Assembly: GCA_022424725.1 (NCBI GenBank)
Contig: JAKMGV010000001.1
Coordinates: forward strand, 1-41,160
Source of the DNA: Paracoccaceae bacterium
Lineage (GTDB): Bacteria; Pseudomonadota; Alphaproteobacteria; Rhodobacterales; Rhodobacteraceae
Reading direction: 5' to 3'
Length of the DNA: 41,160 nt
The notes beneath the pieces are model-generated. The model ran no database searches. It saw only the letters and a program-made list of their open reading frames with translations, and was not told the origin of the DNA. How positions within the stretch are numbered: the stretch's first letter is position 1; the number at the start of each line of letters is the position of its first letter. A program made the position numbers and the translations under genes. This document shows, one piece after another, positions 3,041 through 31,968 of the stretch.

Positions 3041-3078
3041 ATTCACCTGAATAAATCCAAGTAAACTGAGGTTACGCA

Positions 3079-4757: not shown

Positions 4758-4766
4758 GACTTCTCA

Positions 4767-10949: not shown

Positions 10950-11706
10950 GGTCGGCTCTCTTGCTGCGATTTGTGCAGGGCAGGGGCCGTCCGTCACACT
11001 TTTGCATGGCGTGGGATTGAACGCGGATGCATGGGGTGCACAGATTGATGCGCTGTCGCAGGATTATGGGATTACCGCGTTTGATATGGCAGGTCACGGT
11101 GACAGTGCGGGGGTGAAGATAGCTAAGCCCACATTATCCGACTACGTCGATGCGGTGCGTGTCAATCTAACTGCACCAACGGTTGTTGTGGGCCATTCCA
11201 TGGGCGCCATGATCGCATTGAAGCTGGCACAGGATCCCGCCGTGATTGGCGTGGTTGCGCTGAATGCGATTTACCAGCGAACGTCAACGGCATCCGCCGC
11301 AGTGGGTGCAAGGGCCAAGCAGTTGTGGGATGAGTGCTCGGTCAATCCCGAGCCCACGTTGACGCGTTGGTTCGACGATCTGACCTCACCCGAGGCGATG
11401 GCCTGTGATCGCTGGCTACGCGCGGTTCCGATGGACGGGTATCGTGCCGCGTATTCCGTGTTTGCCAATGAAAACGGCCCCACTGCATCCGAATTACAAT
11501 CGCTACACAAACCTGCGCTTTTCATCACGGGCGAGCGAGAGCCAAACTCAACACCTGAGATGAGCATTCAGTTGGCGGAATGTTGTCCCATGGGTCAGGC
11601 GCATATCGTCAAAGATGCCGCGCATATGATGCCCATGACGCATGCGGGCGAAGTCAATGCACACCTGCGGGCGTTCATATCGCAGTGTCACCAAGGAGAG
11701 GTCTGA
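10921..11706 (+). CDS. Alpha/beta-hydrolase
   Basis: The 261-residue protein shows oxyanion-loop HGVG (residues 29-32), nucleophile elbow GHSMG with Ser93, and a C-terminal catalytic His235 in AAHMMPM. The usual acidic residue position carries GEREPNSTPE, with Glu207 where Asp is more common, so the acid should be confirmed. No signal peptide is seen, so it is cytoplasmic. It begins inside the preceding gene and its TGA overlaps the ATG of the monooxygenase, so the three are translationally coupled. It may hydrolyse an ester, lactone or enol-lactone made in this pathway. The reaction is not predictable from the sequence alone. Confidence 0.88.
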   Translation: MMWTTQPRSRVGSLAAICAGQGPSVTLLHGVGLNADAWGAQIDALSQDYGITAFDMAGHGDSAGVKIAKPTLSDYVDAVRVNLTAPTVVVGHSMGAMIALKLAQDPAVIGVVALNAIYQRTSTASAAVGARAKQLWDECSVNPEPTLTRWFDDLTSPEAMACDRWLRAVPMDGYRAAYSVFANENGPTASELQSLHKPALFITGEREPNSTPEMSIQLAECCPMGQAHIVKDAAHMMPMTHAGEVNAHLRAFISQCHQGEV

Positions 11707-12740
11707 TGGATTTTTCACTATTCGCACATATGGAACGGGTCGATCGAACCGATAGCCATGAAACCCTCTATTCGGATTTCATTGATCTTTGCAAAATGGC
11801 GGATCAGGGTGGCATGCGCGCTATTTGGACGGGTGAACATCACGGCATGGATTTCACGATTGCGCCAAACCCCTTTTTGTCACTGGTTGATATTGCACAT
11901 CACACACAAAATGTACGTTTGGGAACAGGCACTGTGATTGCGCCGTTTTGGCACCCCATCGCGCTAGCGGGTGAGGCCGCAGCCACCGATTTGATGACCA
12001 AAGGACGTTTGGAAATTGGAATTGCGCGTGGCGCCTATAGCTATGAATATGAACGGATCATGCCAGGCATGGACGCCTGGGAAGCAGGGCAAAGAATGCG
12101 TGAAACGGCCCCGACACTGCGCAAATTGTGGCAAGGGGATTATGCGCACGAAGGCGAATTTTTTCAGTTTCCCGCAACCACATCTGCCCCCAAACCTGTT
12201 CAAGAAAACGGCCCACCGATTTGGATTGCCGCGCGCGATCCAAACAGTCATGAATTCGCCGTTGCCAATGATTTCAATGTTCAGGTCACGCCTTTGTGGC
12301 AAGGGATGGAGGAAATCACATCCTTGATGGGACGTTTTAATGCGGCCAAGGCGCAGAATCCAGAAAAGTCACCCAAAATCATGCTGCTACACCATACCTA
12401 TGTTGCCAAGGATGCCGCAGATGCGGATCGGGCGATCCAAGAATTGACCAAGTTTTATTGTTATTTTGGGGCGTGGTTTCAAAATAAGCGTCCAGTAACC
12501 CAAGGAGCGATTGAGAAACTGACGGACCAAGACGTCGCGGATAATAAAATGATTTCAGCAGATGAATTAGCGCGTGATTTGACAGTTGGAACGGCGGCAG
12601 AAGTCATTGATCGGATCAAACGATACGAGGATTTGGGATATGATGAATTTGCATTTTGGATTGACAGCGGCATGTCGAGTGATCGTAAAAAAGAGAGCTT
12701 AGCGCGCTTTATCAACGACGTAATGCCAGCATTTCAGTGA
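11706..12740 (+). CDS. Luciferase-like (LLM class) FMN-dependent monooxygenase
   Basis: The 344-residue protein begins MDFSLFAHMERVDRTDSHET at the ATG overlapping the hydrolase stop, with GGAGAGGT just upstream. It has the bacterial-luciferase TIM-barrel pattern: IWTGEHHGMDF, VRLGTGTVIAPFWHPIALAGE and GRLEIGIARGAY, then an alpha-helical insertion and C-terminal GTAAEVIDRIKRYEDLGYDEF. Such enzymes use reduced flavin and oxygen to hydroxylate or open rings, or to cleave C-N or C-S bonds. No separate flavin reductase is encoded nearby, so reduced FMN must come from elsewhere, unless the FAD oxidoreductase at 14305 takes part. The substrate is unknown. Confidence 0.92.
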   Translation: MDFSLFAHMERVDRTDSHETLYSDFIDLCKMADQGGMRAIWTGEHHGMDFTIAPNPFLSLVDIAHHTQNVRLGTGTVIAPFWHPIALAGEAAATDLMTKGRLEIGIARGAYSYEYERIMPGMDAWEAGQRMRETAPTLRKLWQGDYAHEGEFFQFPATTSAPKPVQENGPPIWIAARDPNSHEFAVANDFNVQVTPLWQGMEEITSLMGRFNAAKAQNPEKSPKIMLLHHTYVAKDAADADRAIQELTKFYCYFGAWFQNKRPVTQGAIEKLTDQDVADNKMISADELARDLTVGTAAEVIDRIKRYEDLGYDEFAFWIDSGMSSDRKKESLARFINDVMPAFQ

Positions 12741-12747
12741 GGACAAA

Positions 12748-14223
12748 ATGACAAACCCGCATTTTCAACTTTATATCGACGGTTCATTTTGTGAGGGCGC
12801 TGGAGGTGCAGTTATGCATAGTCAAAACCCAGCCGATGGTAAAAATTGGGCCAGTTTTGCCTGTACCGACAAACAGGATGTTGAACGTGCGGTTGTTGCC
12901 GCAAAGCGTGCCTTGGACAATCCCACATGGCGCGACATGACACAGACCGCGCGTGGAAAGCTGTTGTTCAAACTTGCGGATTTGATTGAACAACATGCAG
13001 GCCGCTTGGGTGAGTTGGAAACGCAGGATAGCGGTAAATTGTTGGCCGAAACTGCGACACAAACTAAATATGTCGCGGATTATTATCGCTATTACGCGGG
13101 ACTCGCCGACAAGGTGGAAGGCGCGGTTTTACCAATCGACAAACCTGACATGCATGTGTTCACCAAACGTATGCCAATCGGTGTGGTTGCGGCGGTGGTC
13201 CCGTGGAACGCGCAAATGTTTTTGTCTGCCACGAAATTGGGTCCCGCCTTGGCGGCGGGGTGTTCAGTGATCCTAAAGGCCTCTGAAATCGCGCCGATCC
13301 CGATGTTGGAATTTGCCAAACTGATCGATCAGGCGGGTTTTCCAAATGGCGTAGTCTCTGTGATAACAGGGGATGCTGAAAATTGTTCCATTCCATTAAC
13401 ACGTCATCCACAGGTCGACCGAATTGCATTCACAGGTGGGCCAGAAACCGCGCGTCACGTTGTGCGAAATTCTGCGGAAAATTTTGCGGTGACCACCCTG
13501 GAGCTAGGGGGAAAATCCCCCATTTTGGTGTTTAAGGATGCGGATTTGGATAGTGCGGCCAATGGTTTGATCGCTGCAAATTTTGGTGCCTCGGGTCAGT
13601 CCTGTGTGGCAGGCTCACGTGGCCTGATCCATCGAAGCATTTTGCCCGACCTTATTGCCCGCATAAAAGATAAGGCCAGTGGAATTGTTGTCGGTGATCC
13701 GTTGAACAGCGCCACGCATGTGGGCCCCTTATGTACAGGTGCCCAGATTGATCGCATCGTTGATACATTGGATAAGGCACAATCGCAGGGTGCGACAATC
13801 CATTTTGGGGGTGCACCTCTGGAACGGGATGGGAACTACATGGCACCAACCTTGGTGGAATGCGCCTCGGAGGATACCGAAACGCTGCACATCGAAATGT
13901 TTGGCCCTGTTATGTCATTGATCCCATTCGATACCGAGGAAGAGGCCATAATGATGGCCAACAACTCGCAATTCGGATTGGGCTCTGGTGTGTTTACCCA
14001 GAATATTGCACGTGCGCATCGTGTTTCTGATCGCATTCGGTCTGGGATTTGTTGGGTCAATACATATCGTGCAATCTCACCAATCGCGCCGTTTGGTGGA
14101 TTTAATCAGTCGGGCTATGGACGCGAGGCAGGTCAGGATGCGATTTTGGATTACACACGCACCAAAACCACGTGGATAAATACATCGGATGCACCGATGC
14201 AAAATCCGTTTGTGATGCGCTAA
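12748..14223 (+). CDS. NAD(P)-dependent aldehyde dehydrogenase
   Basis: The 491-residue protein is a full-length ALDH. Catalytic features are Asn154 in VVPWN, Glu252 in LELGGKSP and the nucleophile Cys286 in ASGQSCVAGSR; the cofactor-binding FTGGPETARHV and the C-terminal GICWVNTYRAISPIAPFGG are also present. It oxidises an aldehyde to an acid in the cytoplasm. It starts 7 bases after the monooxygenase gene and belongs to the same transcript. Its aldehyde could be a product of the monooxygenase step. The sequence resembles betaine-aldehyde-type ALDHs, a broad group, so I do not assign a substrate. Confidence 0.94.
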   Translation: MTNPHFQLYIDGSFCEGAGGAVMHSQNPADGKNWASFACTDKQDVERAVVAAKRALDNPTWRDMTQTARGKLLFKLADLIEQHAGRLGELETQDSGKLLAETATQTKYVADYYRYYAGLADKVEGAVLPIDKPDMHVFTKRMPIGVVAAVVPWNAQMFLSATKLGPALAAGCSVILKASEIAPIPMLEFAKLIDQAGFPNGVVSVITGDAENCSIPLTRHPQVDRIAFTGGPETARHVVRNSAENFAVTTLELGGKSPILVFKDADLDSAANGLIAANFGASGQSCVAGSRGLIHRSILPDLIARIKDKASGIVVGDPLNSATHVGPLCTGAQIDRIVDTLDKAQSQGATIHFGGAPLERDGNYMAPTLVECASEDTETLHIEMFGPVMSLIPFDTEEEAIMMANNSQFGLGSGVFTQNIARAHRVSDRIRSGICWVNTYRAISPIAPFGGFNQSGYGREAGQDAILDYTRTKTTWINTSDAPMQNPFVMR

Positions 14224-14304
14224 GACTTTGCACGGTTGTCGGTTTTGGGCATGTATTCAATGCTAAAGGACGGCATTATGGTACGAGAGTCCCACAGGTG
14301 ATAC

Positions 14305-15669
14305 ATGAGCAGAACAATCACAGAACCCGCAAAACAAATTGATGTCATCCATGAAACTGATGTTTTGGTGGTTGGGTCGGGCCCCGGTGGTTTGGCCGCT
14401 GCGCTGGCCGCCGCACGTATGGGGGTGAAGACGACCCTTGTTGAACGTTTCGGATGTTTTGGGGGCAATATCACCACTGTGGGAGTTGAGGGGTTTGCAT
14501 GGTATCGCCACGAACAAACCGTCGAAGCGGGCGGGTTGGGACGCGAATTTGAAGATCGCGCCAAGGAAATGGGCGCGGCTGTGCCTGAAAGCCAAAGCCT
14601 ATCTTATGAATTAGACTCAGAAGGGTTCAAACTGGTCGCGGACCACCTAATCGAAGAAGCGGGTGTTATCCCGATGCTGCACCGTTTATTCGTCACGCCA
14701 ATAATGGACGGGGATCGCGTTACGGGAGTTATCACCGAATCCAAAGCGGGCAGAGAGGCCTTGTTGGCGAAGGTTGTGATTGATGCCACAGGGGATGCCG
14801 ATATCGCGCATCGCGCGGGTGCCCCCGTCACCAAACCCCCGAAAGAGGACTTGCAAGCGGCAAGTGTGATGTTCCATTGCGCAGGTGTGGATAAGAAAAA
14901 GTTCATGGAAGATGTGAAGGAAAATCCACTAACCTACGCGGATTGGTCAACGGGTGAATGGACCGTGGAAACGGATGGGAAAGAGGACACCATGTTTTCC
15001 CCATTCATCAAAAAACCCTTTGAACAGGCACGTCAATCGGGACTGATCCCTGCGGATTTGTCCACGATTTCGGGAACATGGGGTGCCGTGCATGACACGG
15101 GTGAAATGACCTATATGAATTTGGTACATCTGGCAGAATGTGACGGTACTGATCCCGCGGATTTAACCCACTTCGAAATGGAAGGTCGGCGTCAGGCGAT
15201 GCTGGCGATTGATGCGCTGCGCGAATATGCGCCGGGCTGTTCGGGCATTCGATTACGAAATTTTGGGATGACGATTGGCATTCGCGATACCCGCAAAATC
15301 GACGCACACTATAACATGACCGAAGACGATGTACGCCATCAGGCCCGATTTGAAGACAGTATCGGGATCTATCCCGAATTTATCGACGGATACGGCATTC
15401 TTATCCTACCAACGACGGGGCGTTATATGCATATTCCCTATCGCTCCATGCTTCCAAAAGGGATCAAGGGGTTGTTGGTTGCAGGCCGTGCAACGGGTGG
15501 GGATCGGGTGGCACATGCCGCAACACGAAACATGGCCTGTTGTGCGGTATCTGGGCAGGGCGCAGGGGTCGCCGCAGCCTTGGCGGTAAAAACACTCTGC
15601 GACTTGGCTGATGTTGACATGACTGCTGTGCAGGGCGCGTTGACCAAGCAGGGTGTTCAGTATCACTAA
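14305..15669 (+). CDS. FAD-dependent oxidoreductase (PF12831-like)
   Basis: The 454-residue protein has an N-terminal dinucleotide fold, DVLVVGSGPGGLAAALAAAR (residues about 19-38), followed by VERFGCFGGNITTVGVEGFAW, typical of the FAD_oxidored family. Further marks are VVIDATGDADIAHRAGAPV and a C-terminal FAD motif, GLLVAGRATGGDRVAHAATR. There is no signal peptide. It follows the aldehyde dehydrogenase after 81 bases and is probably in the same operon. Some relatives are merely annotated as succinate dehydrogenase-like flavoproteins, without known substrate. It could dehydrogenate a pathway intermediate; a role in supplying reduced flavin to the LLM enzyme is speculative. Confidence 0.87.
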   Translation: MSRTITEPAKQIDVIHETDVLVVGSGPGGLAAALAAARMGVKTTLVERFGCFGGNITTVGVEGFAWYRHEQTVEAGGLGREFEDRAKEMGAAVPESQSLSYELDSEGFKLVADHLIEEAGVIPMLHRLFVTPIMDGDRVTGVITESKAGREALLAKVVIDATGDADIAHRAGAPVTKPPKEDLQAASVMFHCAGVDKKKFMEDVKENPLTYADWSTGEWTVETDGKEDTMFSPFIKKPFEQARQSGLIPADLSTISGTWGAVHDTGEMTYMNLVHLAECDGTDPADLTHFEMEGRRQAMLAIDALREYAPGCSGIRLRNFGMTIGIRDTRKIDAHYNMTEDDVRHQARFEDSIGIYPEFIDGYGILILPTTGRYMHIPYRSMLPKGIKGLLVAGRATGGDRVAHAATRNMACCAVSGQGAGVAAALAVKTLCDLADVDMTAVQGALTKQGVQYH

Positions 15670-15777
15670 ATCCAGCGTTGTCGTGTGTGGTGTTTCGCCG
15701 ATCACTCAAAGTTCATTTTGACACGGGCAAATGTCGCTCTACCAATAAAGTGTTGGTTTTCATGATTGGATGTGCGC

Positions 15778-16893
15778 ATGCGGTTCGTAATTTTATTTAT
15801 GTTGTTGTTACTTTCCCATGCAGGTTTTGCCGAAACCATCAAGGGCAGCCATGATACAAGCCTACATCTGACATACATCGCCGAATTTAACGAACCTTGG
15901 GCAATCGAACAGTTGGACGATCAATCGATTTTGGTGACGGAAAAATCCGGTCAAATGTGGCGCGTGGATGCTACGGGTCACAAAACGCCAATTCGTGGTG
16001 TCCCTAATGTCGCGTATGGTGGTCAAGGTGGATTGGGGGATATCAGACTGCATCCTAATTTTGTCGAAAATCGCCTCATCTATTTTTCGACTATTGCTTC
16101 AAACGATGGCGGTGCAACCCGCGGTGCGGTGGTCTATCGCGCGGAATTTACGGGTGATGCACTTGAAAACGTGCAGCAGATTTGGCGACAAGATCCCTTT
16201 GTTTCTGGAATGGGACATTTTGGTCATAAACTTGCGTTTGCAAAGGATGCCGCAACAGATCGGGATGTTATTTTTATAACATCGGGGGATCGTCAATACA
16301 TGCATCCTGCGCAAAATTATGGCACCAACATTGGTAAAATCGTTCGTATTTTTGATGACGGTGGCATCCCTGAAACCAATCCATATTTCAGTCGCCCGCC
16401 GCCCACGAACGAAATTTGGAGTGCGGGTCATCGCAATCCATTGGGCATTGCATTTGACCCCACAGGTGCCTTGTGGAGTGTCGAGATGGGGCCAGCAGAT
16501 GGGGATGAGTTAAATTTGATCCAGCCTGCCCGCAACTATGGTTGGCCCATTGTGTCCGAGGGCGAGCATTATGATGGTACACCAATTCCGTCACATGCGA
16601 CGCGTCCTGATTTCACAGCACCAATCAGAAGCTGGGTGCCTACAATTGCCCCATCTGCCATCCGCTTTATGCCCGCGCGTGATGAAAATGAATGGGCCTC
16701 ACATGCCTTTGTCACGGGCTTACGTAGCCGCGCATTGTTTCGTCTGCAAATCGCGGAAGATCGTGTCGCCGTGGAAGAGGTGTTCCAATTTAAACGCCGA
16801 CTGCGGGATGTATTGCCGGTGTCAGATGAGCGTATTTGGTTGATCGAAGACGGTAAATCCGCGCGCCTTCTGATCGTGAAGAAACAAGATTGA
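15778..16893 (+). CDS. Exported PQQ-dependent sugar dehydrogenase (Asd/YliI type)
   Basis: The ATG at 15778 gives a 371-residue protein with a short clean signal peptide (MRFVILFMLLLLSHAGFA). An in-frame TTG at 15766 is less convincing. The mature part reads as the six-bladed propeller of soluble PQQ aldose dehydrogenases: LDDQSILVTEKSGQMWRV, GGQGGLGDIRLHPNF, GHFGHKLAF, YGTNIGKIVRIF, AGHRNPLGIAFDP and EMGPADGDELNLI. It should oxidise an aldose or other sugar in the periplasm and pass electrons to the respiratory chain. It follows the flavoprotein cluster after about 100 bases and could be separately transcribed. PQQ biosynthesis genes are not in the window. Confidence 0.9.
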   Translation: MRFVILFMLLLLSHAGFAETIKGSHDTSLHLTYIAEFNEPWAIEQLDDQSILVTEKSGQMWRVDATGHKTPIRGVPNVAYGGQGGLGDIRLHPNFVENRLIYFSTIASNDGGATRGAVVYRAEFTGDALENVQQIWRQDPFVSGMGHFGHKLAFAKDAATDRDVIFITSGDRQYMHPAQNYGTNIGKIVRIFDDGGIPETNPYFSRPPPTNEIWSAGHRNPLGIAFDPTGALWSVEMGPADGDELNLIQPARNYGWPIVSEGEHYDGTPIPSHATRPDFTAPIRSWVPTIAPSAIRFMPARDENEWASHAFVTGLRSRALFRLQIAEDRVAVEEVFQFKRRLRDVLPVSDERIWLIEDGKSARLLIVKKQD

Positions 16894-16970: not shown

Positions 16971-18074
16971 TTAGAAAAACGGCAATTCGCAAACGCTACC
17001 TGTATCGATGTTTCCATCTCGATGAACCTCAACACGATCACCGGGTTGGACATCGACACCTACTAGGATGAAACCGATGACGGTTTCTGCCCGTGGTGAC
17101 CAGCACCCATTGGTCATTTCCCCAATATATGCGCCGTTTTTATACACCTTGAACCACCGCAAATGCCCTGCTTGGGGGGATTGATTGTCCAGTTTTACGC
17201 CCAATTGATGGCGTTTGATGCCTGCTGCATGGAGTTCACGCAACGCTTTGATTCCGACAACCTCATCGGGTAAATGCAGGTCCACATATTTTCCAAGCCG
17301 CACTTCAAATGGATTTGTATTATCGTCGTTGTCGCCGCCATATGACAACAGCCCACTTTCGATCCGTTCAATCGGGCTGGGGTTTCCGGGTCCGATGTCA
17401 TAGGGCGCGCCTGCTTCGCGCATAATATTCCAAAGCTCGTCCGCACGCATTCCATCGCGCAGATAAATTTCATATCCCCCTTGTTTGGAATACCCTGATT
17501 TTTGAACGATCAATGGGATGCCGTTTAGGTCGGTTTCTTTGAACCAAAAATATTTCAAATCATAAATCCAGTCCCCAAAAACATCGGCCACAACATGTAC
17601 GGCCTTTGGACCCTGAAGTGCGATTGGGGACACATCGGGTTCACACATGGTAACATTCAGACCACGCTCGGCCGCGATGGCGCGTGCCCACATCAGTATA
17701 TTGTCATCCCCAATGGATAACCAAAAATGCGTATCAGAGTGTTTTAAGACGACAGGGTCATTGATGATAACACCACGATGGTCGCACATCGGAATGTATT
17801 TCCCTTTCCCCACTTCGATGTTTGATAGATCACGTACTGACAACAGTTGTATCAGCGTCGCTGCATCTGGACCGATGATTTCCACCTGTCGTTCAACGCT
17901 GACGTCCCATAGGGCCACACCGTTCATCAAACGGTCATATTCTTCCATCGGATGACCATAGGACACCGGCATCAACATTTTGTTGTAAGGTGAAAACGCT
18001 GTTACCCCCTCTTCAACAGTTTTTTCAAAAAAGGGAGAAACGCGCAAACGTGTGTTGGGTCCGATTTCAAACAT
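16971..18074 (-). CDS. DmdA-like/GcvT-family tetrahydrofolate-dependent methyltransferase
   Basis: The 367-residue protein belongs to the glycine-cleavage T-protein superfamily and matches DMSP demethylase DmdA in length and in several blocks: LWDVSVERQVEIIG (residues 55-68), VRDLSNIEVGKGKYIPM, SGYSKQGGYEIY (193-204), ERIESGLLSYGGD (236-248) and the ending GSVCELPFF. Many positions differ from the marine DmdA proteins I remember, so it is either a divergent DmdA or a sister enzyme moving a methyl group from another substrate to tetrahydrofolate. It lies 23 bases downstream of a marR gene, in one operon, and opposite a PanB-like/Rieske/deiodinase-like operon. No acuI, dddD or other DMSP gene lies near, which argues against DMSP. 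Confidence 0.8.
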   Translation of the reverse strand: MFEIGPNTRLRVSPFFEKTVEEGVTAFSPYNKMLMPVSYGHPMEEYDRLMNGVALWDVSVERQVEIIGPDAATLIQLLSVRDLSNIEVGKGKYIPMCDHRGVIINDPVVLKHSDTHFWLSIGDDNILMWARAIAAERGLNVTMCEPDVSPIALQGPKAVHVVADVFGDWIYDLKYFWFKETDLNGIPLIVQKSGYSKQGGYEIYLRDGMRADELWNIMREAGAPYDIGPGNPSPIERIESGLLSYGGDNDDNTNPFEVRLGKYVDLHLPDEVVGIKALRELHAAGIKRHQLGVKLDNQSPQAGHLRWFKVYKNGAYIGEMTNGCWSPRAETVIGFILVGVDVQPGDRVEVHRDGNIDTGSVCELPFF

Positions 18075-18097
18075 TGTAGGCCGCCTAGTGATATGGG

Positions 18098-18592
18098 TTA
18101 TTGGTTCAGTGCTGCCGTATGCAGTGCGGTTTTTCTAAGCAATTTCGACAATTCTTGTCGCTCTTGCACATTTAGACCTGCAAAAACATCTTCTTGGCGT
18201 TGGGTAAGATAGGCTGCGATGCGTTTGTGCAACCTTTGTCCCTTTTTGGTGATGGTCAGACTGGCCTCACGTTTATCGACCCTATTGTGCCGACGCTCAA
18301 TCAACTGTTCTGCCACCATGCGATGAACCGCACGGCTGATTGTGTTTCGAGGCCGCATCGAAATTTGCGCCACATCGCGGGCGGTTAATTCATCGTAATG
18401 GGACAGGCAGGCCAATAAAATGTATTCCGCACGCACCAGCCCAAAATCACGTTTGATCGCGGCATAGGTCGGAAACACGATTGAGTTGGCCAGATATGTA
18501 ATCCGATAGGCATCTGAGTATTCAATTGTGTCAAAAATTTCCGTCAGATCTGTTTGCCGTGCAGTTGGATTTGCTGTCGTCGTTTTCTGCAT
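18098..18592 (-). CDS. MarR-family transcriptional regulator
   Basis: Starting at the ATG at 18592 the protein has 164 residues; a TTG-started extension to 18637 would overlap the palindromes and is unlikely. The winged helix-turn-helix region is visible as EYILLACLSHYDELTARDVA, then RPRNTISRAVHRMVAEQLIE, then RRHNRVDKREASLTITKKG with the conserved DxR of the wing. It sits upstream of the DmdA-like gene in one operon and diverges from the PanB-like operon. The intergenic DNA carries TTGATACGTCAA and a 22-bp palindrome, candidate targets for this repressor. The ligand is probably a substrate of the module. Confidence 0.92.
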   Translation of the reverse strand: MQKTTTANPTARQTDLTEIFDTIEYSDAYRITYLANSIVFPTYAAIKRDFGLVRAEYILLACLSHYDELTARDVAQISMRPRNTISRAVHRMVAEQLIERRHNRVDKREASLTITKKGQRLHKRIAAYLTQRQEDVFAGLNVQERQELSKLLRKTALHTAALNQ

Positions 18593-18625
18593 GTTCGTGA
18601 TGAAATTCGTGTTGCGTTGTGAATT

Positions 18626-18637
18626 TTGATACGTCAA
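18626..18637. promoter_or_regulatory. Candidate MarR box TTGATACGTCAA
   Basis: TTGA and TCAA arms flank a TACG centre. The identical 12-mer occurs at 33910-33921, next to the second marR gene of the window. It directly abuts the 22-bp palindrome at 18638-18659. Confidence 0.55.
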
Positions 18638-18659
18638 TATTGTTCCAAATGGAACAATA
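18638..18659. promoter_or_regulatory. Perfect 22-bp palindrome, candidate operator
   Basis: TATTGTTCCA (18638-18647) and TGGAACAATA (18650-18659) are perfect inverted arms separated by AA. The site ends 14 bases before the ATG of the PanB-like gene, so a bound protein would block that operon's start region. Its GTTCC/GGAAC core differs from the neighbouring MarR box, so a second regulator may bind here. Confidence 0.65.
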
Positions 18660-18673
18660 AATTTGATAAGTTT

Positions 18674-19540
18674 ATGACCTTGGATAAACGAAAACTAACG
18701 CTACCAGAATTGGCACAGAAAAAGGCTGCTGGTGAGCGTTTGGTGATGGTTGCAGTGGGCGAGGTTTTGACCGCCGCATGGGCCGAACGCGCGGGTGTCG
18801 ATATCATCGGTGTGGGCGACAGTTTGGGCATGACATTGCACGGACATGAAAACACACTGTCGATGACAGTTGATCAAATGATCATGCACACCCAGGCTGT
18901 GCGTCGAGGTGCGCCAAATACTCTGTGTCTGGTCTCAATGCCCTATGGGTCTTATGCGACACCAGAAATGGCCGTAACAAACGCCGTTAGAATGATGAAA
19001 GAAAGCGGCGCTGATGCATTAAAGCTTCAACTGGGGAAAGAGGGTGCGCATATCATCAAAGCAATTGCAGATGCAGGCGTTCCTGTTATGAGCCATGTTG
19101 GATTGCTGCCCCATAAAGTGCATCTGATGGGTGGTTTTAAAATGCAGGGTGGCACAGCGGATGCTGCAATGAAAATCATCGAAGACGCCCAAGCCATTGA
19201 GCAAGCCGGCGCAATCGGGCTTGAGATAGAGGCGATGCCAATCGAAGTCGGGCGTGCGGTGGATCAGGCGGTGTCGATTTTCACATTCTCAATCGGTGCG
19301 GGCGCCGCGGGTACATGCCAGTTGCTGAATGGTTATGACCTGTTGGGGGCATTTGATACCTTCAAGCCGAAATTTGCAAAGCGCTATGCCAATATTGCCG
19401 AAATCGCCACGCAGGCGTTTTCTGACTACGCCAAAGATGTGCGTGCGGGCCGTTTTCCAGATGACGAACATAGTTATCATATGAAGCAGGAAGAGGCGCA
19501 AAAACTGGCTGCAATTTTAGAAAAGAAGGGGACCCGTTAA
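18674..19540 (+). CDS. PanB-like aldolase with altered metal site (ketopantoate hydroxymethyltransferase homologue)
   Basis: The 288-residue protein (ATG 18674) is clearly related to 3-methyl-2-oxobutanoate hydroxymethyltransferase, a TIM-barrel enzyme that condenses ketoisovalerate with methylene-tetrahydrofolate. It retains GVGDSLGMTLHG (Asp49/Ser50, equal to E. coli Asp45/Ser46), LK117 (Lys112) and Glu184 (Glu181). But the metal ligand Asp84 is Ser88 in LVSMPYGSY, and Glu114 is Gln119 in KLQLG; the C-terminal CDGQ-type loop is also changed to GTCQLLN. It therefore probably is not a pantothenate enzyme but performs a related aldol or retro-aldol step on another substrate. Its stop overlaps the ATG of the Rieske gene by one base (TAATG), indicating joint function. 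Confidence 0.82.
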   Translation: MTLDKRKLTLPELAQKKAAGERLVMVAVGEVLTAAWAERAGVDIIGVGDSLGMTLHGHENTLSMTVDQMIMHTQAVRRGAPNTLCLVSMPYGSYATPEMAVTNAVRMMKESGADALKLQLGKEGAHIIKAIADAGVPVMSHVGLLPHKVHLMGGFKMQGGTADAAMKIIEDAQAIEQAGAIGLEIEAMPIEVGRAVDQAVSIFTFSIGAGAAGTCQLLNGYDLLGAFDTFKPKFAKRYANIAEIATQAFSDYAKDVRAGRFPDDEHSYHMKQEEAQKLAAILEKKGTR

Positions 19541-20619
19541 TGAATATCACTGCAAAGAATGGACAAACGATCCCAAACGGAATGTTAGAGGACAACTATC
19601 CCCGCAACATGTGGTGGGTGGCCGCGCATAAGGATGAGGTCACAACGAAACCTCTGGCACGCTGGATTTTGGAAACGCCGGTCGTGCTCTACCGTCACGA
19701 CGATGGCACGCCTGCTGCCCTTTACGATCGCTGTCCCCATCGTTGGGCGCCGCTGTCAGAGGGACATGTAAGCGGTGATAAAATCGTTTGTCCCTATCAC
19801 GGTATGGAATTCAACAATCGTGGGGTTTGTACCAAGGCTCCAACGCAGCATATGAAGCCCAAAACGGCGGAAATCCCATCCTATGCCGTCCGTGAAGTTG
19901 GCGCGTATATTTGGATTTGGATGGGAGATCAGGATGCGATTGACACCGATCCACCCGAAGTGGGCTATCAGGTTGATCCAGATTGGAGTCCTGTAAACGG
20001 ATATTATGAGGTTGCGGCGAATTGGGTTTTGATCCGCGAAAATGTGCTGGACCTGACGCATATCGCGTTTTTGCACAAAAACACCTTCAAACAGGATGAC
20101 TGGATCGTGGCCCCCGACGTTTACATGGAAGGGGAAACCATTTGTTATGAACAAGAGTTTGATCTGGCCCCCTTGTCGCCCCTGTTCTGTGCGGGAATGG
20201 GTCTGCCCGAGGATAAGCCGATCAAACGCATTCAAAAAGGGTGGATGCCAAGCCTTGCGATTTCGTTTTCTGATTGGAAGGTCCATGATCCAAATCCAAA
20301 CCCAGGCGCGCGATCTGATTTCATCGTGCGCGGCTGCCACATCGTGACCCCTGCGCAGCGTGGCAAAACACATTACTTCTGGATGGCGGCATTTGACGTG
20401 CCTGAGTTGATAGAAGAAGTGCAGGAAAAAACCCGCAAAAGTGTGACAGCGGCCTTTGATGAGGACAAGCACCTGTTGGAAAAGTTACAGGCAAGCGTTG
20501 CTACCGATCCGCGCGGAATGGATTTTCTTGAGGTTACTTTGGGTGCGGATGGCGCGGGTATTCGGGTGCGCCAATTGCTGAATAAAAAGCTGAAAGCAGA
20601 AGGCCGATCTCTGGGCTAA
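19540..20619 (+). CDS. Rieske non-heme iron oxygenase, VanA type
   Basis: The 359-residue protein has the Rieske motif CPHRWAPL (Cys65, His67) and CPYHG (Cys84, His87), and the mononuclear iron site in ENVLDLTHIAFLH with a downstream acidic ligand probably in FDEDKH. The opening NMWWVAAHKDEVTTKPLARW is typical of vanillate O-demethylase-like oxygenases. Those enzymes oxidatively remove a methyl group as formaldehyde or hydroxylate a ring. A ferredoxin reductase (VanB type) is absent from the operon, so electrons must come from a partner encoded elsewhere. It is coupled to the PanB-like gene upstream, and the deiodinase-like flavoprotein follows 15 bases downstream. Confidence 0.92.
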   Translation: MNITAKNGQTIPNGMLEDNYPRNMWWVAAHKDEVTTKPLARWILETPVVLYRHDDGTPAALYDRCPHRWAPLSEGHVSGDKIVCPYHGMEFNNRGVCTKAPTQHMKPKTAEIPSYAVREVGAYIWIWMGDQDAIDTDPPEVGYQVDPDWSPVNGYYEVAANWVLIRENVLDLTHIAFLHKNTFKQDDWIVAPDVYMEGETICYEQEFDLAPLSPLFCAGMGLPEDKPIKRIQKGWMPSLAISFSDWKVHDPNPNPGARSDFIVRGCHIVTPAQRGKTHYFWMAAFDVPELIEEVQEKTRKSVTAAFDEDKHLLEKLQASVATDPRGMDFLEVTLGADGAGIRVRQLLNKKLKAEGRSLG

Positions 20620-20634
20620 TTTTAGGAGCAGTTC

Positions 20635-21327
20635 ATGTTCACACGTGAAAAATTAGAATATCAGGCGATCGATGTCCCTGATCGGTTTGATGTCTCTGCC
20701 ACGCAGAGTTTGGATGGCGCCACTGCGTTTTACGAACACATGCGAAAACGTCATACGGTTCGCGCTTTTTCGAATAAGCCCGTTTCGAAAGAGGTGATCG
20801 AAACCTGCATCAAAACAGCGGGCACGGCACCATCTGGCGCCAATCATCAGCCTTGGCATTTTGTGGCAATTTCAAATCCTGAGCATAAGCGAAAAATTCG
20901 CGAAGCCGCAGAAGAGGAAGAGCGAAAATTCTATGCAGGTGGGGCAGGCGATGAATGGATCAAAGCGCTGGAACCCATTGGCACCAATGATCACAAGCCG
21001 CACTTAGAGGATGCGCCTTGGTTGATCGTTGTCTTCGCGCAGCGCTATGGCGAATTCGAGGATGGGACACGGTACAAAAACTATTATGTCCCCGAAAGCA
21101 CGGGTATCGCCTGTGGTTTTCTCTTGGCAGCCTTGCACCACGCAGGACTGGTTGCATTGACCCATACGCCAAACCCCATGAAATTTTTGAACGAGCTTCT
21201 AAAGCGGCCAAGCAGTGAAAAACCGCTGATGATTATTGCCATAGGTCACGCCGCCGAGGGGGCCAAGGTGCCAGCGGTTGCAAAGATCAAGAAACCGTTG
21301 GATGAAATCCTGACCACAATTGAGTAG
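20635..21327 (+). CDS. Nitroreductase-fold flavoprotein of the iodotyrosine deiodinase (IYD) type
   Basis: The 230-residue FMN protein has the nitroreductase-fold motif RHTVRAFSNKPV followed by TAGTAPSGANHQPWHF, and the C-terminal STGIACGFLLAALHHAGLVA. Alignment by eye to human iodotyrosine deiodinase gives the same spacing for the three residues that grip the halotyrosine zwitterion: Glu96, Tyr100 and Lys121 (human Glu157, Tyr161, Lys182). This goes beyond a generic nitroreductase call. IYD enzymes reductively remove iodide, bromide or chloride from halotyrosines. It is the last gene of the PanB-like/Rieske operon, after a GGAG ribosome site. The true substrate in this pathway is unknown, but an amino-acid-like or phenolic halide is plausible. 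Confidence 0.85.
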   Translation: MFTREKLEYQAIDVPDRFDVSATQSLDGATAFYEHMRKRHTVRAFSNKPVSKEVIETCIKTAGTAPSGANHQPWHFVAISNPEHKRKIREAAEEEERKFYAGGAGDEWIKALEPIGTNDHKPHLEDAPWLIVVFAQRYGEFEDGTRYKNYYVPESTGIACGFLLAALHHAGLVALTHTPNPMKFLNELLKRPSSEKPLMIIAIGHAAEGAKVPAVAKIKKPLDEILTTIE

Positions 21328-21338: not shown

Positions 21339-22241
21339 TTACATCATAGATTTTGCACCCTTATCCTCGCCAGCTTGCGCAGCATAGATCGACGAATAAC
21401 CACCCGACCAATCAGGTGGTAGTTGGCATGGACGGGGATCATGATGCGCCCATTGTACCTGCGATCCTCGGACAACCTTATAGGTGTTTACGGTTGGCGA
21501 CGGGTGTGGCGTATATGGTTTTGCATCGGCCGATGTGTAGCAATTCAATAGAAGCGGCCGCGGAACAGGATTTTTCGACGAAGGCGAATAATGCAAAGTG
21601 CGTGCATTATGGATTGTGATTGAACCTGCCTTGCCCGTCATATATTCGACATCATCCATATTAATGCCTGCGGCGTCGTCATCTGACAACATCCCTGTCC
21701 AATTTCCATTCGCATCATATTGATTAAACAGATCCATGTTATGGGACCCTGTCAATGCAGCCAGTGGACCATTGTCCATTGTGGTGTCTGCTAAATAACA
21801 ACCGATTGTCAAAACATTATAATTTGTGTGCGGGAAAAATTGAATGTCCTGATGCCATTTGACCGTATCTGATGCATCGAACCATTTGAAATTTAGTTTA
21901 GAGTGATGAAAGACAACGTTCGGGCCAACCAAATCAGCCGCAACATCCGCCATCAACCCAGTTGAAAAATTCCAATAGGCATCACTTGCTGTATCCGGGG
22001 ATTTAAGGCGCCGCAGCACGGGGTTATTCGCGCTGTGATCTGGGCCAATGTCAAACCGATCATCGCTTGCGCTTATGCTTTTGCTTTGTTCCACAAAATC
22101 TTGTGTCGTGTCCTGCAGGGATTTCAGAATATCAGCGGGGACAATTTCGTCCACGTTTACAAACCCTTTGTCAAAATATGCCTTACGCTGTTCTTGGGTC
22201 AGGACGCGCGCGGGATAAGAAAGAATTTCATCTGGTGTCAT
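21339..22241 (-). CDS. Phytanoyl-CoA dioxygenase (PhyH) family Fe(II)/2-oxoglutarate oxygenase
   Basis: From the ATG at 22241 the protein has 300 residues. The iron facial triad is visible as WHQD (His and Asp in VKWHQDIQFFPHTNYN) and a distal His in ITIHNARTLHYSPSSKNP, followed by the 2-oxoglutarate-binding Arg in PRPLLL. Such enzymes hydroxylate unactivated carbons of small metabolites in the cytoplasm. It is 69 bases downstream of frcK on the same strand and convergent with the deiodinase-like gene, so it could be the tail of the frc transcript or an independent gene. The substrate cannot be read; PhyH members are very diverse. Confidence 0.87.
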   Translation of the reverse strand: MTPDEILSYPARVLTQEQRKAYFDKGFVNVDEIVPADILKSLQDTTQDFVEQSKSISASDDRFDIGPDHSANNPVLRRLKSPDTASDAYWNFSTGLMADVAADLVGPNVVFHHSKLNFKWFDASDTVKWHQDIQFFPHTNYNVLTIGCYLADTTMDNGPLAALTGSHNMDLFNQYDANGNWTGMLSDDDAAGINMDDVEYMTGKAGSITIHNARTLHYSPSSKNPVPRPLLLNCYTSADAKPYTPHPSPTVNTYKVVRGSQVQWAHHDPRPCQLPPDWSGGYSSIYAAQAGEDKGAKSMM

Positions 22242-22310
22242 TTTAGCCCCCAAAACGGTATCAACACCCGAATGAGGCCAATTTCAAACACGCCTGTCAA
22301 GGTCTTCGTG

Positions 22311-22937
22311 CTAGTTGCTCAGTGTCAGATCACTTGGCATCCTGTGATTAAGAACGGTTGCCGCGTTGACTATATCGTTGTCATGGGCCCGCTTTTTTGC
22401 GGCTGTGTGTTCCAATCCGTGGTCCAGCCAACGGTTGATCAGTCGGCGTTCCAATTCGTCAAAATCGGCCTCAACAAAAACGGAATAGCCCCAGAACTGA
22501 CTTAGGTCGCGCCAATCCTCTTGGTCCAGCAGTAGATAGTTGCCTTCAACGATGACATATTGGTCGCCACCCGTAATTTTTGCCGCATTGGGTATTGTAC
22601 AATCTTTCGCACGATCAAACAGTGGAATGGATACTTCGTCATCATTCAACAGGTTTTCCAAGGTCGATTTGAACGCCGACACGTCAAACGTCTTTGGCGC
22701 CCCTTTGCGATGCAGTAACCCTTTCGCAATCAGGGTGTCGTTATCCATATGGAACCCGTCCATGGGAACGATGGCGGCTTGTTTTTTTACTTGGTTCAGC
22801 TTGTCACAGAGGCATTCGGTCAATGTGGATTTCCCAACCGCGGGTGGCCCTGCGATCGCAACAAGGCAGCGTTTGTCTGATTGGAGATGTGCCGACAACG
22901 CATCGAAAATGCGATTTGTTGTGTGTTCCAACGTCAT
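22311..22937 (-). CDS. frcK: FrcK-type sugar kinase (P-loop uridine/pantothenate-kinase-like)
   Basis: The 208-residue protein has a Walker A motif GPPAVGKSTL (residues about 30-39), a PMDGFHMDN motif like uridine and pantothenate kinases, and VIVEGNYLLLDQ in the Walker B region. Genes of this type close the frcBCAK operon of rhizobia, where FrcK is the presumed kinase of the fructose importer operon. Here it follows frcA by 14 bases, the same order. It would phosphorylate an imported sugar, but its activity is less well established than the transporter's. Its stop is a TAG at 22311-22313. Confidence 0.82.
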   Translation of the reverse strand: MTLEHTTNRIFDALSAHLQSDKRCLVAIAGPPAVGKSTLTECLCDKLNQVKKQAAIVPMDGFHMDNDTLIAKGLLHRKGAPKTFDVSAFKSTLENLLNDDEVSIPLFDRAKDCTIPNAAKITGGDQYVIVEGNYLLLDQEDWRDLSQFWGYSVFVEADFDELERRLINRWLDHGLEHTAAKKRAHDNDIVNAATVLNHRMPSDLTLSN

Positions 22938-22951
22938 TGGTTGTACGCGTC

Positions 22952-23710
22952 CTACGTCGGGTTTTTTGCGCCTGTCATATAAGCGACGGCGTCAGACATC
23001 TCATGGTCTTTTGGGTCTATAACGGTCAGTCGTTTTCCCAAACGGTGAATATGAATGCGATCACAAACTTCAAAAACATGTGGCATGTTGTGACTGATCA
23101 GGATGATCGGAATGCCACGGGATTTCACGTCTTGGATCAACTCAAGAACACGCCGACTTTCTTTTACGCCTAGGGCTGCTGTTGGTTCATCCAAAATGAT
23201 GACTTTCGATCCGAATGCAGCGGCACGTGCCACGGCGACACCTTGGCGTTGCCCCCCTGAAAGTGTCTCGACCGCTTGGTTGATATTTTGAATGGTCATC
23301 AAGCCCAACTCAGATAGTTTTTCACGCGCAAATTCCTGCATACGCTTTTTATCCAATTGCTTGAAAACAGATCCCATAATACCCGGTTTGCGCAACTCGC
23401 GACCCATGAACATATTATCCGCAATCGATAATGCGGGGCTCATGGCCAATGTTTGATACACGGTTTCAATGCCGTGCTTGCGCGCGTCAATTGGTGATGT
23501 GAACGAGACCGGCTTGCCATCCAAGTATACGCTGCCTTCGTCTGGTGTGACCGCGCCGCATAGTGCCTTGATCAGGGTTGATTTACCCGCGCCATTGTCA
23601 CCAATAACGCCCAAAATTTCACCGGGCATCAATTCAAAGTCACAGTGATCTAGCGCCGTCACACGGCCGTAGCGCTTCACAAGTCCTTTTGCAGAAAGAA
23701 TAGGTTCCAT
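22952..23710 (-). CDS. frcA: FrcA-type sugar importer ATPase
   Basis: The 252-residue single-domain ATPase (ATG at 23710) has Walker A GDNGAGKSTL, Q-loop VYQTLAMSPALSI, signature LSGGQRQGVAVARA and Walker B VIILDEP. Unlike RbsA/XylG it contains one, not two, nucleotide-binding domains, the form found in FrcA. It pairs with the permease FrcC, whose stop overlaps this ATG by one base (TAATG). An eight-residue upstream extension is not needed. It energises uptake of fructose, mannose or ribose, the known substrates of the family. Confidence 0.9.
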   Translation of the reverse strand: MEPILSAKGLVKRYGRVTALDHCDFELMPGEILGVIGDNGAGKSTLIKALCGAVTPDEGSVYLDGKPVSFTSPIDARKHGIETVYQTLAMSPALSIADNMFMGRELRKPGIMGSVFKQLDKKRMQEFAREKLSELGLMTIQNINQAVETLSGGQRQGVAVARAAAFGSKVIILDEPTAALGVKESRRVLELIQDVKSRGIPIILISHNMPHVFEVCDRIHIHRLGKRLTVIDPKDHEMSDAVAYMTGAKNPT

Positions 23711-24777
23711 TAGCTTGTTACCTTTCTGATCCATTGATCAACTGTTACCGCGCCAATGATCAGCATGCCGATCAACATGAATGTCCACTGGGGATCTGCA
23801 CCCGCCATCCGAAGGCCCAGTTCAAATACACCAACGATCAAGGCGCCGAAAAGTGCGCCGACAATGGATCCGCGCCCGCCAAATAGGGAGATGCCGCCGA
23901 TCACAACCGCTGTGATAGCCTGAATATTTCCCACCACACCTGTCGAGGCAGAGGGGGATACCGAACTAAACCGTCCAATCATAACCCATGCAGCCAAGGC
24001 GCAGATGAAACCAGCAAGCATGTACACAGACATCAACGTGCGGTGCACGTCGACGCCTGCAAGTTCAGCGGCCTCGGGGTCATCACCAACGGCATAAACA
24101 TGGCGCCCCCATGCGGTTGAACGCAGCGCGTAGGCCAAGATAATCACCAATCCAACCATGAGCACCACACCAAATGTAAATGTCGCGCCACCGAATTTGA
24201 TTTTGGTGCCCAAGAACTGCAGGAAGGCCGCCTGTTCTGCGATATCCTGACTGCGCAAAGTTTCGTTTGCCGAATAGAGGTAGTTCGCGGCCAAAACGAT
24301 TTGCCACATACCCAGCGTCACGATGAATGGGGGAAGCTTTACGCGGCTAACCAACCAACCGCTGATTGCGCCAAGTCCAGTGCCCACAGCCAAGCCAAGT
24401 GCCACGGACATGGGCGCAGGAATTCCATATCGAAAACTAAATTGCCCCATGATCACGGTGCAAAATACAGCAATCGCACCAACAGACAGATCGATCCCCG
24501 CGGTCAAGATAATAAGGGTTTGCGCCGCTGCAAGAACACCGACAATTTGAACCTGCTGCAAAATAAGGGTCAGCGCGAAGGGCGAGAAAAATTTTGACCC
24601 CAATAAAATGCCAAATAATGCGATGGCAAACACAAGGACGATTAACGGAACAAGGGCAGGGGTCACATGAAGCGCGTGTTGCAAACGGCCGACGAATCCT
24701 TTGCGATGATCGTCGAAATCGGCCACTTCATCGGATGCGTCCGAGACTGCCTTTTCATAATCTTGCGAAGATGACAT
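23710..24777 (-). CDS. frcC: FrcC-type sugar ABC transporter permease
   Basis: The 355-residue membrane protein has a roughly 35-residue cytoplasmic N-terminus and about eight to ten hydrophobic segments. The family motif is visible in LTAGIDLSVGAIAVF and YAVGDDPEAAELAGVDVHR, with AVVIGGISLFGGRGSIVGAL near the end, characteristic of RbsC/FrcC permeases. It follows frcB after a 117-base gap that contains two stem-loops, and GGAAGGA precedes its ATG. It forms the membrane channel of the importer with FrcA and FrcB. Confidence 0.92.
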   Translation of the reverse strand: MSSSQDYEKAVSDASDEVADFDDHRKGFVGRLQHALHVTPALVPLIVLVFAIALFGILLGSKFFSPFALTLILQQVQIVGVLAAAQTLIILTAGIDLSVGAIAVFCTVIMGQFSFRYGIPAPMSVALGLAVGTGLGAISGWLVSRVKLPPFIVTLGMWQIVLAANYLYSANETLRSQDIAEQAAFLQFLGTKIKFGGATFTFGVVLMVGLVIILAYALRSTAWGRHVYAVGDDPEAAELAGVDVHRTLMSVYMLAGFICALAAWVMIGRFSSVSPSASTGVVGNIQAITAVVIGGISLFGGRGSIVGALFGALIVGVFELGLRMAGADPQWTFMLIGMLIIGAVTVDQWIRKVTS

Positions 24778-24834
24778 TTACATTCCTTCCTCAATCGACC
24801 GCGGTCTCAGTTTATATGTCATATTATATGCTGA

Positions 24835-24880
24835 GAGCGGACGATTGTCCGCTCCCAAATTCCTGATGGCCCAAGGGCCA
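24835..24880 (-). terminator. Two stem-loops between frcB and frcC
   Basis: GAGCGGAC (24835-24842) pairs perfectly with GTCCGCTC (24847-24854) around a four-base loop, and TGGCCC (24867-24872) pairs with GGGCCA (24875-24880) across two bases. Both lie just after the frcB stop, read on the minus strand. No T-run follows, so transcript stabilisation or partial attenuation is more likely than full termination. Confidence 0.5.
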
Positions 24881-24894
24881 ATCGGGAGGAGAAA

Positions 24895-25914
24895 TTATCC
24901 CCAGCAGAGGTTTGTACCTTCTGCAACATTGATGCTGTCGACACCATCAACTGCTTCTGCAGCAACCAATGATACACCAGTGTCTAGGAAGTTTTTGCCA
25001 GGTGTGTTTGCAGGCAATGTTCCGTCTTTTGCAAATTGTGCAATCGCTTCGATACCAAGGGATGCCATCAACAATGGGTATTGTTGTGATGTCGCTGCAA
25101 TCACGCCGTCTGCAACGTTTTTAACACCTGGGCATCCGCCGTCTACAGATACGATTGTGACATCGTTTTCACGACCAATTGCCTTTAGCGCTTCGTATGC
25201 ACCTGCGGCCGCTGGTTCGTTGATTGTGTAGACAACGTTGATCATCGGATCTTGGGCTAGGCAGTTTTCCATCGCTGTGCGACCGCCTTCTTCGTTACCC
25301 GCTGTGACTTCGTTACAAATGATGCGTGCGTCTGTTTCGTCGCCCCATTTGTTTGGGTCACCTAGGTCAATACCAAAGCCTTTAAGGAAACCTTGGTCAC
25401 GTAGAACGCCAACTGTTGGCTGGCTGATCGCAAGGTCAAGCATCGCGATTTTTGCATTTGCCGCATCTGCGCCAAGTGCTGCTGCTGCATATTGACCGAT
25501 CAATTCACCCGCTAGGAAGTTATCTGTTGCGAATGTTGCGTGTGCCGCGCCAATTGGTTCCAGCGGAGTATCAAGCGCGATCACCAATAGACCTGCATCT
25601 TTCGCCTGTTCAACCGAAGGAACGATTGCAGCTGTGTCAGACGCTGTCAAAAGGATACCTGATGCACCATCTGCGATACATGTTTCGATTGCAGCAACTT
25701 GGCTTTCGTTGTCGCCGTCGATTTTACCCGCATAGCTCTTTAGCGTGATGCCAAGCTCTTCTGCTTTTGCAGCAGCGCCTTCACGCATTTTTACGAAGAA
25801 GGGGTTTGTATCTGTCTTTGTGATCAAGCATGCGCTTGTAGAGTGGCTGCCCGCAAGCGCGGCGCCAGAAGTAGCGACAAGGGCAATCGCAGTCGCTGTC
25901 ATTAACTTTTTCAT
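24895..25914 (-). CDS. frcB: FrcB-type periplasmic sugar-binding protein
   Basis: From the ATG at 25914, with GGGAGAA upstream, the protein has 339 residues and a clear signal peptide ([20 protein letters not shown], cleavage near LAG). The mature part is a type I periplasmic binding protein of the RbsB/FrcB group: [20 protein letters not shown], then [26 protein letters not shown] and [17 protein letters not shown]. It should bind a monosaccharide, by analogy fructose, mannose or ribose. It is the first gene of frcBCAK and lies opposite frcR, which probably represses it. Confidence 0.91.
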
Positions 25915-26006
25915 TTTATTCTCCCATTGGTTGTGCCGAGTGAAGCGCACTCACGAACGCCACACTCGAATGCTGCACATTAAGCGACGATTCTTGAGGT
26001 TAGTCA

Positions 26007-26029
26007 ATAAATAAATCAACTTTATTTAT
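26007..26029. promoter_or_regulatory. Candidate FrcR operator
   Basis: ATAAATAAA (26007-26015) and TTTATTTAT (26021-26029) form a perfect inverted repeat with a TCAAC spacer in the divergent frcB-frcR region. AT-rich arms of this type with a short centre are usual for ROK repressors. Location fits control of both promoters. Confidence 0.6.
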
Positions 26030-26103
26030 AATTGAATTTTTGATTTGATTTCGGTATTAATTAACGCGATAGACCGCAGAGCTCTGACGCGGGATGGGGA
26101 AGA

Positions 26104-27267: not shown

Positions 27268-27268
27268 A

Positions 27269-31886: not shown

Positions 31887-31895
31887 TCTGAAATC

Positions 31896-31924: not shown

Positions 31925-31968
31925 ATTGCTATTATTCGCCCAAGATCACAAAAGAATGCGGTTTGAAA

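Follow-up and report, generated by a model that had tools for sequence, protein, structure and literature searches.

Related enzymes in described systems

PanB (ketopantoate hydroxymethyltransferase, EC 2.1.2.11) binds its metal ion through D45, D84 and E114, with E181 acting as the catalytic base, and the reaction can in principle run in either direction. Formaldehyde is a product of VanA-type Rieske enzymes, and in the related dicamba O-demethylase (DdmC) the residues N230 and W285 bind dicamba. DmdA is the DMSP demethylase. A combination with some resemblance to the one described here occurs in the methanesulfonate region of Filomicrobium, where a gcvT and a panB gene are annotated close to sulfur genes and a cluster encoding a Rieske-type monooxygenase (PMC4433239). 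The likeness is one of annotation; the Rieske family there is a different one (MsmA), and a MarR regulator, an operator and PhyH are not noted in the available part of that report (PMC4433239). Our literature search found no paper that describes these genes together, in keeping with the initial annotation, which named no described pathway with this set, and the gene module is apparently undescribed. Homarine catabolism was rejected as a match, since nothing matching was found in the literature searched.

Organization of the locus

The locus lies within a window of 41,160 nucleotides, the whole stretch of DNA that was analysed. Its features are as follows.

16971–18074, minus strand: DmdA-like folate-dependent demethylase of type A, 367 aa, with GCV_T and GCV_T_C domains; 38% identity to Pelagibacter DmdA
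18098–18592, minus strand: MarR-family regulator, on the same strand as the dmdA-like gene with a 23-base gap
18640–18657, no strand: operator palindrome TTGTTCCAAATGGAACAA, the presumed MarR site, conserved in the marR/panB intergenic region
18674–19540, plus strand: PanB-fold paralog with an altered metal site, 288 aa (PF02548, AF2 model, own clade)
19540–20619, plus strand: VanA/DdmC-type Rieske oxygenase, 359 aa, with Rieske and VanA_C domains and iron ligands
20635–21327, plus strand: IYD-type flavoprotein, 230 aa, a lineage-specific passenger; best match 5ko7
21339–22253, minus strand: PhyH-type Fe/2-oxoglutarate dioxygenase, 304 aa, 71–82% identical to PhyH genes within module operons

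The initial annotation had placed five genes at 16971–21327, and all five are present in the order and on the strands claimed. The true unit is wider than that interval, and the gene set was incomplete; both the PhyH dioxygenase, which belongs to the module, and the operator had been missed. The regulator probably starts at ATG 18592, with an open frame continuing to TTG 18637. The PanB-like protein probably starts at ATG 18674, because the upstream TTG of its frame lies beyond the operator. The panB and oxygenase genes overlap by one base and the IYD-type gene follows after 15 bases, and therefore co-transcription looks likely.

The genes recur together in distant bacteria

The combination of genes for MarR, the PanB-like protein, the Rieske oxygenase and the DmdA-like protein is found again in Alphaproteobacteria, Gammaproteobacteria and Acidimicrobiia. 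This grouping is beyond chance and is conserved across phyla, and it is nearly certain that it constitutes a real gene module, one that marine bacteria from two or more phyla share. Co-occurrence is not confined to this locus for four of the five genes listed initially, the IYD-type gene being the exception. A marR homolog lies divergently beside panB in 32 of 66 loci, and a DmdA-like gene is found within 4 kb of 41 of the 66 module-type PanB genes, so is not universal. When the same 149 genomes were searched for both, Rieske oxygenases of >60% identity and module-type PanB fell in the identical five. The genome of locus L054 has kept the oxygenase, the PanB-like protein and PhyH on three separate contigs.

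The composition varies with lineage. The DmdA-like gene is transcribed with marR in the window, and lies downstream of the oxygenase in other lineages. These add PhyH, a CitE/RipC-like lyase, SBP56, a [2Fe-2S] ferredoxin and a TRAP transporter, of which the lyase, SBP56 and ferredoxin are often module members. SBP56 is within the operon in L037, L045, L046 and L091, and in L261 it is beside GFA and rhodanese genes; the protein scores 163 bits against 650 for the NCBI methanethiol-oxidase model, far below it. PanB relatives of about 78% identity in L197 and L200 are accompanied by a methyltransferase and MTTB, without a Rieske gene. The best explanation of the locus in the window is a conserved catabolic module in the form that it takes in the HIMB11 lineage.

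A conserved palindrome separates marR from its divergent neighbor

The palindrome TTGTTCC-N4-GGAACAA is present with at most one mismatch between marR and the divergent neighbor in 31 of 32 loci. Its core TGTTCC-N4-GGAACA, again allowing one mismatch, occurs in 31 of the 32 marR/panB intergenic regions compared with 0.01 in shuffled sequences. We presume that this is the MarR operator of the module. The earlier proposal of a divergent module with its own MarR is borne out, and is now backed by this putative operator. The exact sequence TTGTTCCAAATGGAACAA is found at this one position in the window and in the searched part of its genome. Since the exact palindrome normally occurs once per genome, a genome-wide regulon was rejected. 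Further copies with one mismatch precede the TRAP gene dctP in L037 and L053. Two of the extra sites, one inside nusB (L236) and one inside an open frame (L228), look like chance.

The PanB-like protein has lost two metal ligands

The fold of the PanB-like protein is that of PanB. It matches PF02548 with 293 bits in a profile search, and passes the NCBI PanB cut-off (TIGR00222, 260.4 against 207.55). The AF2 model has a pLDDT of 92, and its best PDB match is ketopantoate hydroxymethyltransferase, with Z = 33.8 to 1o68 and 33.6 to 1m3u. Identity to PanB is 35–38%; D45, S46, K112, H136 and E181 are kept, but D84 is replaced by S or A, E114 by Q, and Y25 is lost. The module sequences form their own clade (SH-aLRT 98), with neighbors different from those of PanB. 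E114 is Q in all 60 module-clade sequences and in 11/11 of a sister clade, where position 84 is C, and E181, S46, K112 and H136 are invariant or nearly so in both clades. D45, D84 and E114 are all retained in 14 canonical PanB copies from the same genomes, and it is on this contrast, together with general knowledge, that the metal-ligand roles are assigned. The proposal of PanB-like hydroxymethyl transfer must be qualified, as two canonical metal ligands are gone. The sister clade has PhyH, TRAP, FA-hydroxylase and DUF6166 genes as neighbors, with a DmdA-like gene in none of its 11 loci.

The DmdA-like protein and the two oxygenases

The DmdA-like protein matches PF01571 (142.8 bits) and also contains PF08669. 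It does not reach the cut-off of the DmdA model NF009133 (356.1 bits against 410). Module DmdA-like proteins are of two types that are only about a third identical, and the type-B proteins of L037, L040 and L053 pass NF009133 with 448–483 bits. The window protein, at 38% identity to Pelagibacter DmdA, keeps the folate-site residues and many of the pocket residues; it differs from DmdA in being linked to the Rieske and PanB-like pair. A separate DmdA (533 bits) is encoded elsewhere in the window's genome. Family membership and the retained residues thus support the methyl/folate theme of the initial annotation. A further match, with 158 and 121.6 bits, is to the folate domain of TMAO demethylase.

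The Rieske oxygenase has dicamba O-demethylase as its best solved relative. It shares Rieske and VanA_C domains, iron ligands and an RGxHIxTP motif with DdmC and VanA, at about 30% identity, but N230 and W285 of the dicamba site align with non-matching letters. The Rieske CxH...CxxH motif is present in 63 of 65 homologs, and the mononuclear iron site D171/H174/H179 in all 65, with D309 in 64. In contrast to VanA systems there is no VanB-type reductase beside the gene; L045 and L046 do have a ferredoxin close by. The PhyH protein keeps its HxD...H and R residues, and its 71–82% identity is to module-operon genes of L037, L046, L048, L053, L085 and L088. Among 395 genomes, PhyH and module PanB co-occur in four of the six that have PhyH (p about 3e-6).

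The IYD-type flavoprotein is a passenger

The best solved relative of the flavoprotein is 5ko7 (238 bits), followed by vertebrate iodotyrosine deiodinases, and the E/Y/K residues that bind the zwitterion of halotyrosine are aligned. It is probably a true enzyme of the IYD type, but it is not part of the module as had been thought. Its gene is next to the module at two of the 66 loci, those of the window and HIMB11, and nine other module-bearing genomes encode IYD elsewhere. We therefore rejected it as a module part and regard it as a local addition. With the enzyme a passenger, the suggestion of a possibly halogenated compound loses its support. Nor is a phenolic compound supported; no ring-cleavage gene was seen to recur among module loci, and the TRAP binding protein of L188 is of keto-acid/hydroxy-acid type. 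Taken overall, the MarR module and the methyl/folate theme of the initial annotation stand, while its IYD, halogen and phenolic parts do not.

Possible function of the module

In our preferred reading, to which we give about equal weight for and against, the module catabolizes a small methylated carboxylic acid using folate. The inducer would be the substrate or an early product, and the substrate would be imported via the TRAP transporter where present. The Rieske enzyme and PhyH would hydroxylate or activate it, and the DmdA-like enzyme would pass a methyl on to tetrahydrofolate. The PanB-like enzyme retains carboxylate-binding and base residues without the full metal site, and may form or cleave a C–C or hydroxymethyl bond, with folate as a possible partner. 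In lineages that have them, the lyase would finish the carbon skeleton and SBP56 would remove methanethiol.

More tentatively, and with the balance somewhat against it, this could be a new pathway, found in marine alpha- and gammaproteobacteria as well as Acidimicrobiia, whose PanB-fold enzyme lacks the usual metal site and performs a folate-linked or metal-free C1 or C–C step. The compound acted on would be a methylated carboxylate, possibly a sulfonium, and a dedicated MarR would act as the switch. The pathway would then be an unrecognized route for dissolved methylated acids in the sea, in widespread roseobacters and others, whose genes family models would label 'PanB', 'DMSP demethylase' or 'vanillate demethylase'. 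For enzymology, the PanB-fold subfamily that lacks two metal ligands is a well-defined question.

An unlikely, yet credible, alternative is that the substrate is incidental and the genes trap formaldehyde. The oxygenase would take a methyl group off O, N or S and release it as formaldehyde, as VanA-type enzymes do, and the PanB-like and GcvT/DmdA-like proteins would load tetrahydrofolate. The match to the TMAO demethylase folate domain agrees with this, as does the gcvT and panB pair annotated near the genes of another formaldehyde-releasing system, that for methanesulfonate in Filomicrobium (PMC4433239). But the sister PanB clade manages without a DmdA-like gene, and PhyH and CitE-like partners would be superfluous.

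It is also rather improbable that the module carries out a folate-saving C-demethylation, in which the Rieske oxygenase, PhyH or both hydroxylate a C-methyl group adjacent to a 2-oxo acid and the PanB-like enzyme works in reverse to move the hydroxymethyl group onto tetrahydrofolate. Both PanB clades are constantly accompanied by hydroxylating enzymes (Rieske, PhyH or FA-hydroxylase type), the TRAP binding protein tested (L188) is of keto-acid type, and the base E181 is kept together with K112 and S46. An enzyme that has lost D84 and E114, however, would coordinate a 2-oxo acid to metal less tightly.

A reading in which a methoxylated and perhaps halogenated phenol or aromatic amino acid is broken down, and IYD serves as the reductive dehalogenase, is very unlikely. 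The dicamba O-demethylase relationship, the zwitterion residues of the flavoprotein and its apparent co-transcription in the window are all consistent with it, but these are outweighed by the rarity of the IYD adjacency, the mismatched dicamba site and the lack of a recurring ring-cleavage gene.

Least probable of all is an ordinary pantothenate-biosynthesis PanB with neighbors serving separate pathways. It would fit the fold, the TIGR00222 score and the fact that no other PanB was found in the window's genome, which is 77% complete. It was rejected as the main reading since a second PanB, canonical and with D84 and E114, is present in HIMB11 and in most of the other module genomes examined, and the module copy forms its own clade, has both ligands replaced and keeps the same neighbors in distant taxa.

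Candidate substrates

The TRAP binding protein of L188, a single protein linked to the module PanB subfamily, resembles binders of keto acids and lactate. Close relatives are present in only 3 of 23 module genomes, and it was rejected as a general module partner for that reason; none was found in the window's genome (77% complete). Through the conserved operator and the regulon's TRAP binding protein, the substrate of our proposed pathway would be directly findable. As to its class, our best guess is a carboxylate other than DMSP that bears a dimethylsulfonium or another onium group. Two kinds of compound with hydroxymethyl groups, mycosporine-like amino acids and betaine-lipid head groups, were also considered as candidates.

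Gene content and recurrence of the module

The initial annotation identified five genes in this region; all are confirmed at the following positions, and their solved relatives agree.

Genes and palindrome of the window copy
16971-18074, minus strand, DmdA-like protein; solved relative DmdA
18098-18592, minus strand, MarR regulator
18640-18657, palindrome TTGTTCCAAATGGAACAA; sole exact site in the 41-kb window
18674-19540, plus strand, PanB-like protein; solved relative KPHMT
19540-20619, plus strand, Rieske oxygenase; closest solved relative dicamba O-demethylase
20635-21327, plus strand, IYD-type flavoprotein; closest solved relative IYD
21339-22253, PhyH, just beyond the stretch originally annotated

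Comparison of sequences leaves the module and its predicted operator well supported, and a catabolic role with methyl transfer to folate likely. The PanB-like and Rieske genes overlap by 1 base. The IYD-type gene starts 15 bases after the Rieske gene, and may be co-transcribed with the module genes in the window. The genome that holds the window is incomplete (77% complete). Its close relative Rhodobacteraceae bacterium HIMB11 has a collinear locus (L032) with 91-99% protein identity.

With the Rieske protein as query, 84,980 genomes yielded 68 loci. The Rieske gene is present in these by construction, and the accompanying genes are the informative part. In an enlarged set, 59 of 73 Rieske loci also have a PanB-like gene, or 59 of 63 once a single-cell-genome clade is excluded. 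Linkage of the two genes is lost in that clade: the L054 genome has its Rieske, PanB-like and PhyH genes on three separate contigs. Within 4 kb of 66 module-type PanB genes, a few of which represent one genome reached twice, are Rieske (59), DmdA-like (41) and MarR (37) genes, the last adjacent and divergent at 32; CitE-like (15), PhyH (12), GntR (11) and IYD (2) genes also occur. The taxa include Paracoccaceae, Roseobacteraceae, further alphaproteobacteria, Granulosicoccaceae, further gammaproteobacteria and Acidimicrobiia. Thus of the four enzymes proposed to form a unit, the PanB-like, Rieske and DmdA-like proteins recur with MarR across taxa, but IYD does not. It adjoins the module only in the window and HIMB11, and nine other module genomes have a homolog elsewhere.

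The PanB-like query, free of Rieske bias, found 10 module-type copies in 395 genomes of the family. Among 149 genomes the Rieske gene (>60% identity) and module-type PanB are confined to the same five. The window PhyH has intact iron ligands and is 71-82% identical to PhyH genes inside module operons. At ≥70% identity PhyH occurs in 6 of the 395 genomes, four of them among the 10 with module PanB (p about 3e-6). In keeping with the proposal that no described pathway has this gene set, no paper describing it was found in the literature searched, which covers only a minority of subscription journals.

In L085 and L210 the PanB and Rieske frames, 79-81% identical to the window, are fragmented, so reflecting either module decay or assembly errors. 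L087 carries the module in a record titled Oceanobacillus, probably mislabelled or mixed. In L197 and L200 module-type PanB is followed by MTTB and SAM methyltransferase genes, without a Rieske gene. A PanE/ApbA-type reductase adjoins an MTTB-family methyltransferase at 29461-31925 of the window.

A palindrome between marR and panB

TGTTCC-N4-GGAACA is exact in 24 of 32 marR/panB intergenic regions, and seven more have one mismatch; shuffled regions gave a mean of 0.01 loci with the palindrome. Of 28 genomes, most have the exact sequence just once, at the module. Two of the extra sites, those of L236 and L228, fall within coding frames. L037 and L053 have further copies with one mismatch upstream of dctP, which would place the TRAP transporter in their regulon. 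In L188 the homologous binding protein most resembles the SmoM/TakP type, binders of keto acids and lactate.

The PanB-like protein

The protein scores above the NCBI PanB cut-off. Its AlphaFold model (pLDDT 92) best matches KPHMT (Z 33.8), the next family being PrpB (Z 19.6). E114 and D84, which we take to be PanB metal ligands, are nonetheless replaced, the first by Q in all 60 module copies and the second by S or A wherever a copy has a residue at that position. Canonical copies from the same genomes retain D84 and E114. In the tree a single branch separates each of the module, sister and canonical sets from the rest (SH-aLRT 98, 96 and 99, respectively). We therefore do not assign the protein to KPHMT. 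D45, S46, K112, H136 and E181 are retained in module and sister PanB.

Sister relatives (46-51% identity) have E114 to Q and D84 to C in 11 of 11 copies. Their 11 loci have no nearby Rieske or DmdA-like gene; the neighbours are GntR (10), an FA-hydroxylase-family protein (9), and PhyH, DctP, DctM and DUF6166 (8 each). Oxygenases and an acid transporter are therefore the usual company of this subfamily. The sister-clade locus of L192 and L217 combines GntR, PanB, DctPQM, PhyH and FA-hydroxylase; it comes from a 1.3 Mb single-contig alphaproteobacterial genome (G831), possibly SAR11.

The DmdA-like protein and sulfur genes

The window DmdA-like protein shares 38% identity with Pelagibacter DmdA and retains the residues examined. 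It scores under the DmdA cut-off, and the genome encodes a proper DmdA elsewhere. A second type (L037, L040, L053) exceeds the cut-off, with 448-483 bits. SBP56, the family to which methanethiol oxidases belong, is represented downstream in L037, L045 and L046, accompanied by a [2Fe-2S] ferredoxin in the latter two. In L261 the same pair lies beside formaldehyde-activating-enzyme (GFA) and rhodanese genes. Given the DmdA-like types and these neighbours, we infer that a sulfonium substrate is to be preferred. The L261 row (11900-16830: SDR, GFA, rhodanese, SBP56, ferredoxin, CoA-binding protein, FMN-dependent dehydrogenase) looks like a methanethiol-oxidation cluster.

Other regions of the window

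Upstream, at 11700-15669, are successive genes for a luciferase-like monooxygenase, an aldehyde dehydrogenase and an FAD oxidoreductase, a row retained in HIMB11 and not near the module in other genomes. An ABC transporter with a Peripla_BP_4 binding protein, a uridine-kinase-like protein, a ROK regulator and an FGGY kinase occupy 22311-28723, and PhyH is the final gene of this run, on the same strand. At 472-7098, genes for a LacI regulator, a sugar-type ABC transporter and a glycosidase resembling mannosylglycerate hydrolase follow one another, probably as an operon for the uptake of a compatible solute or a sugar.
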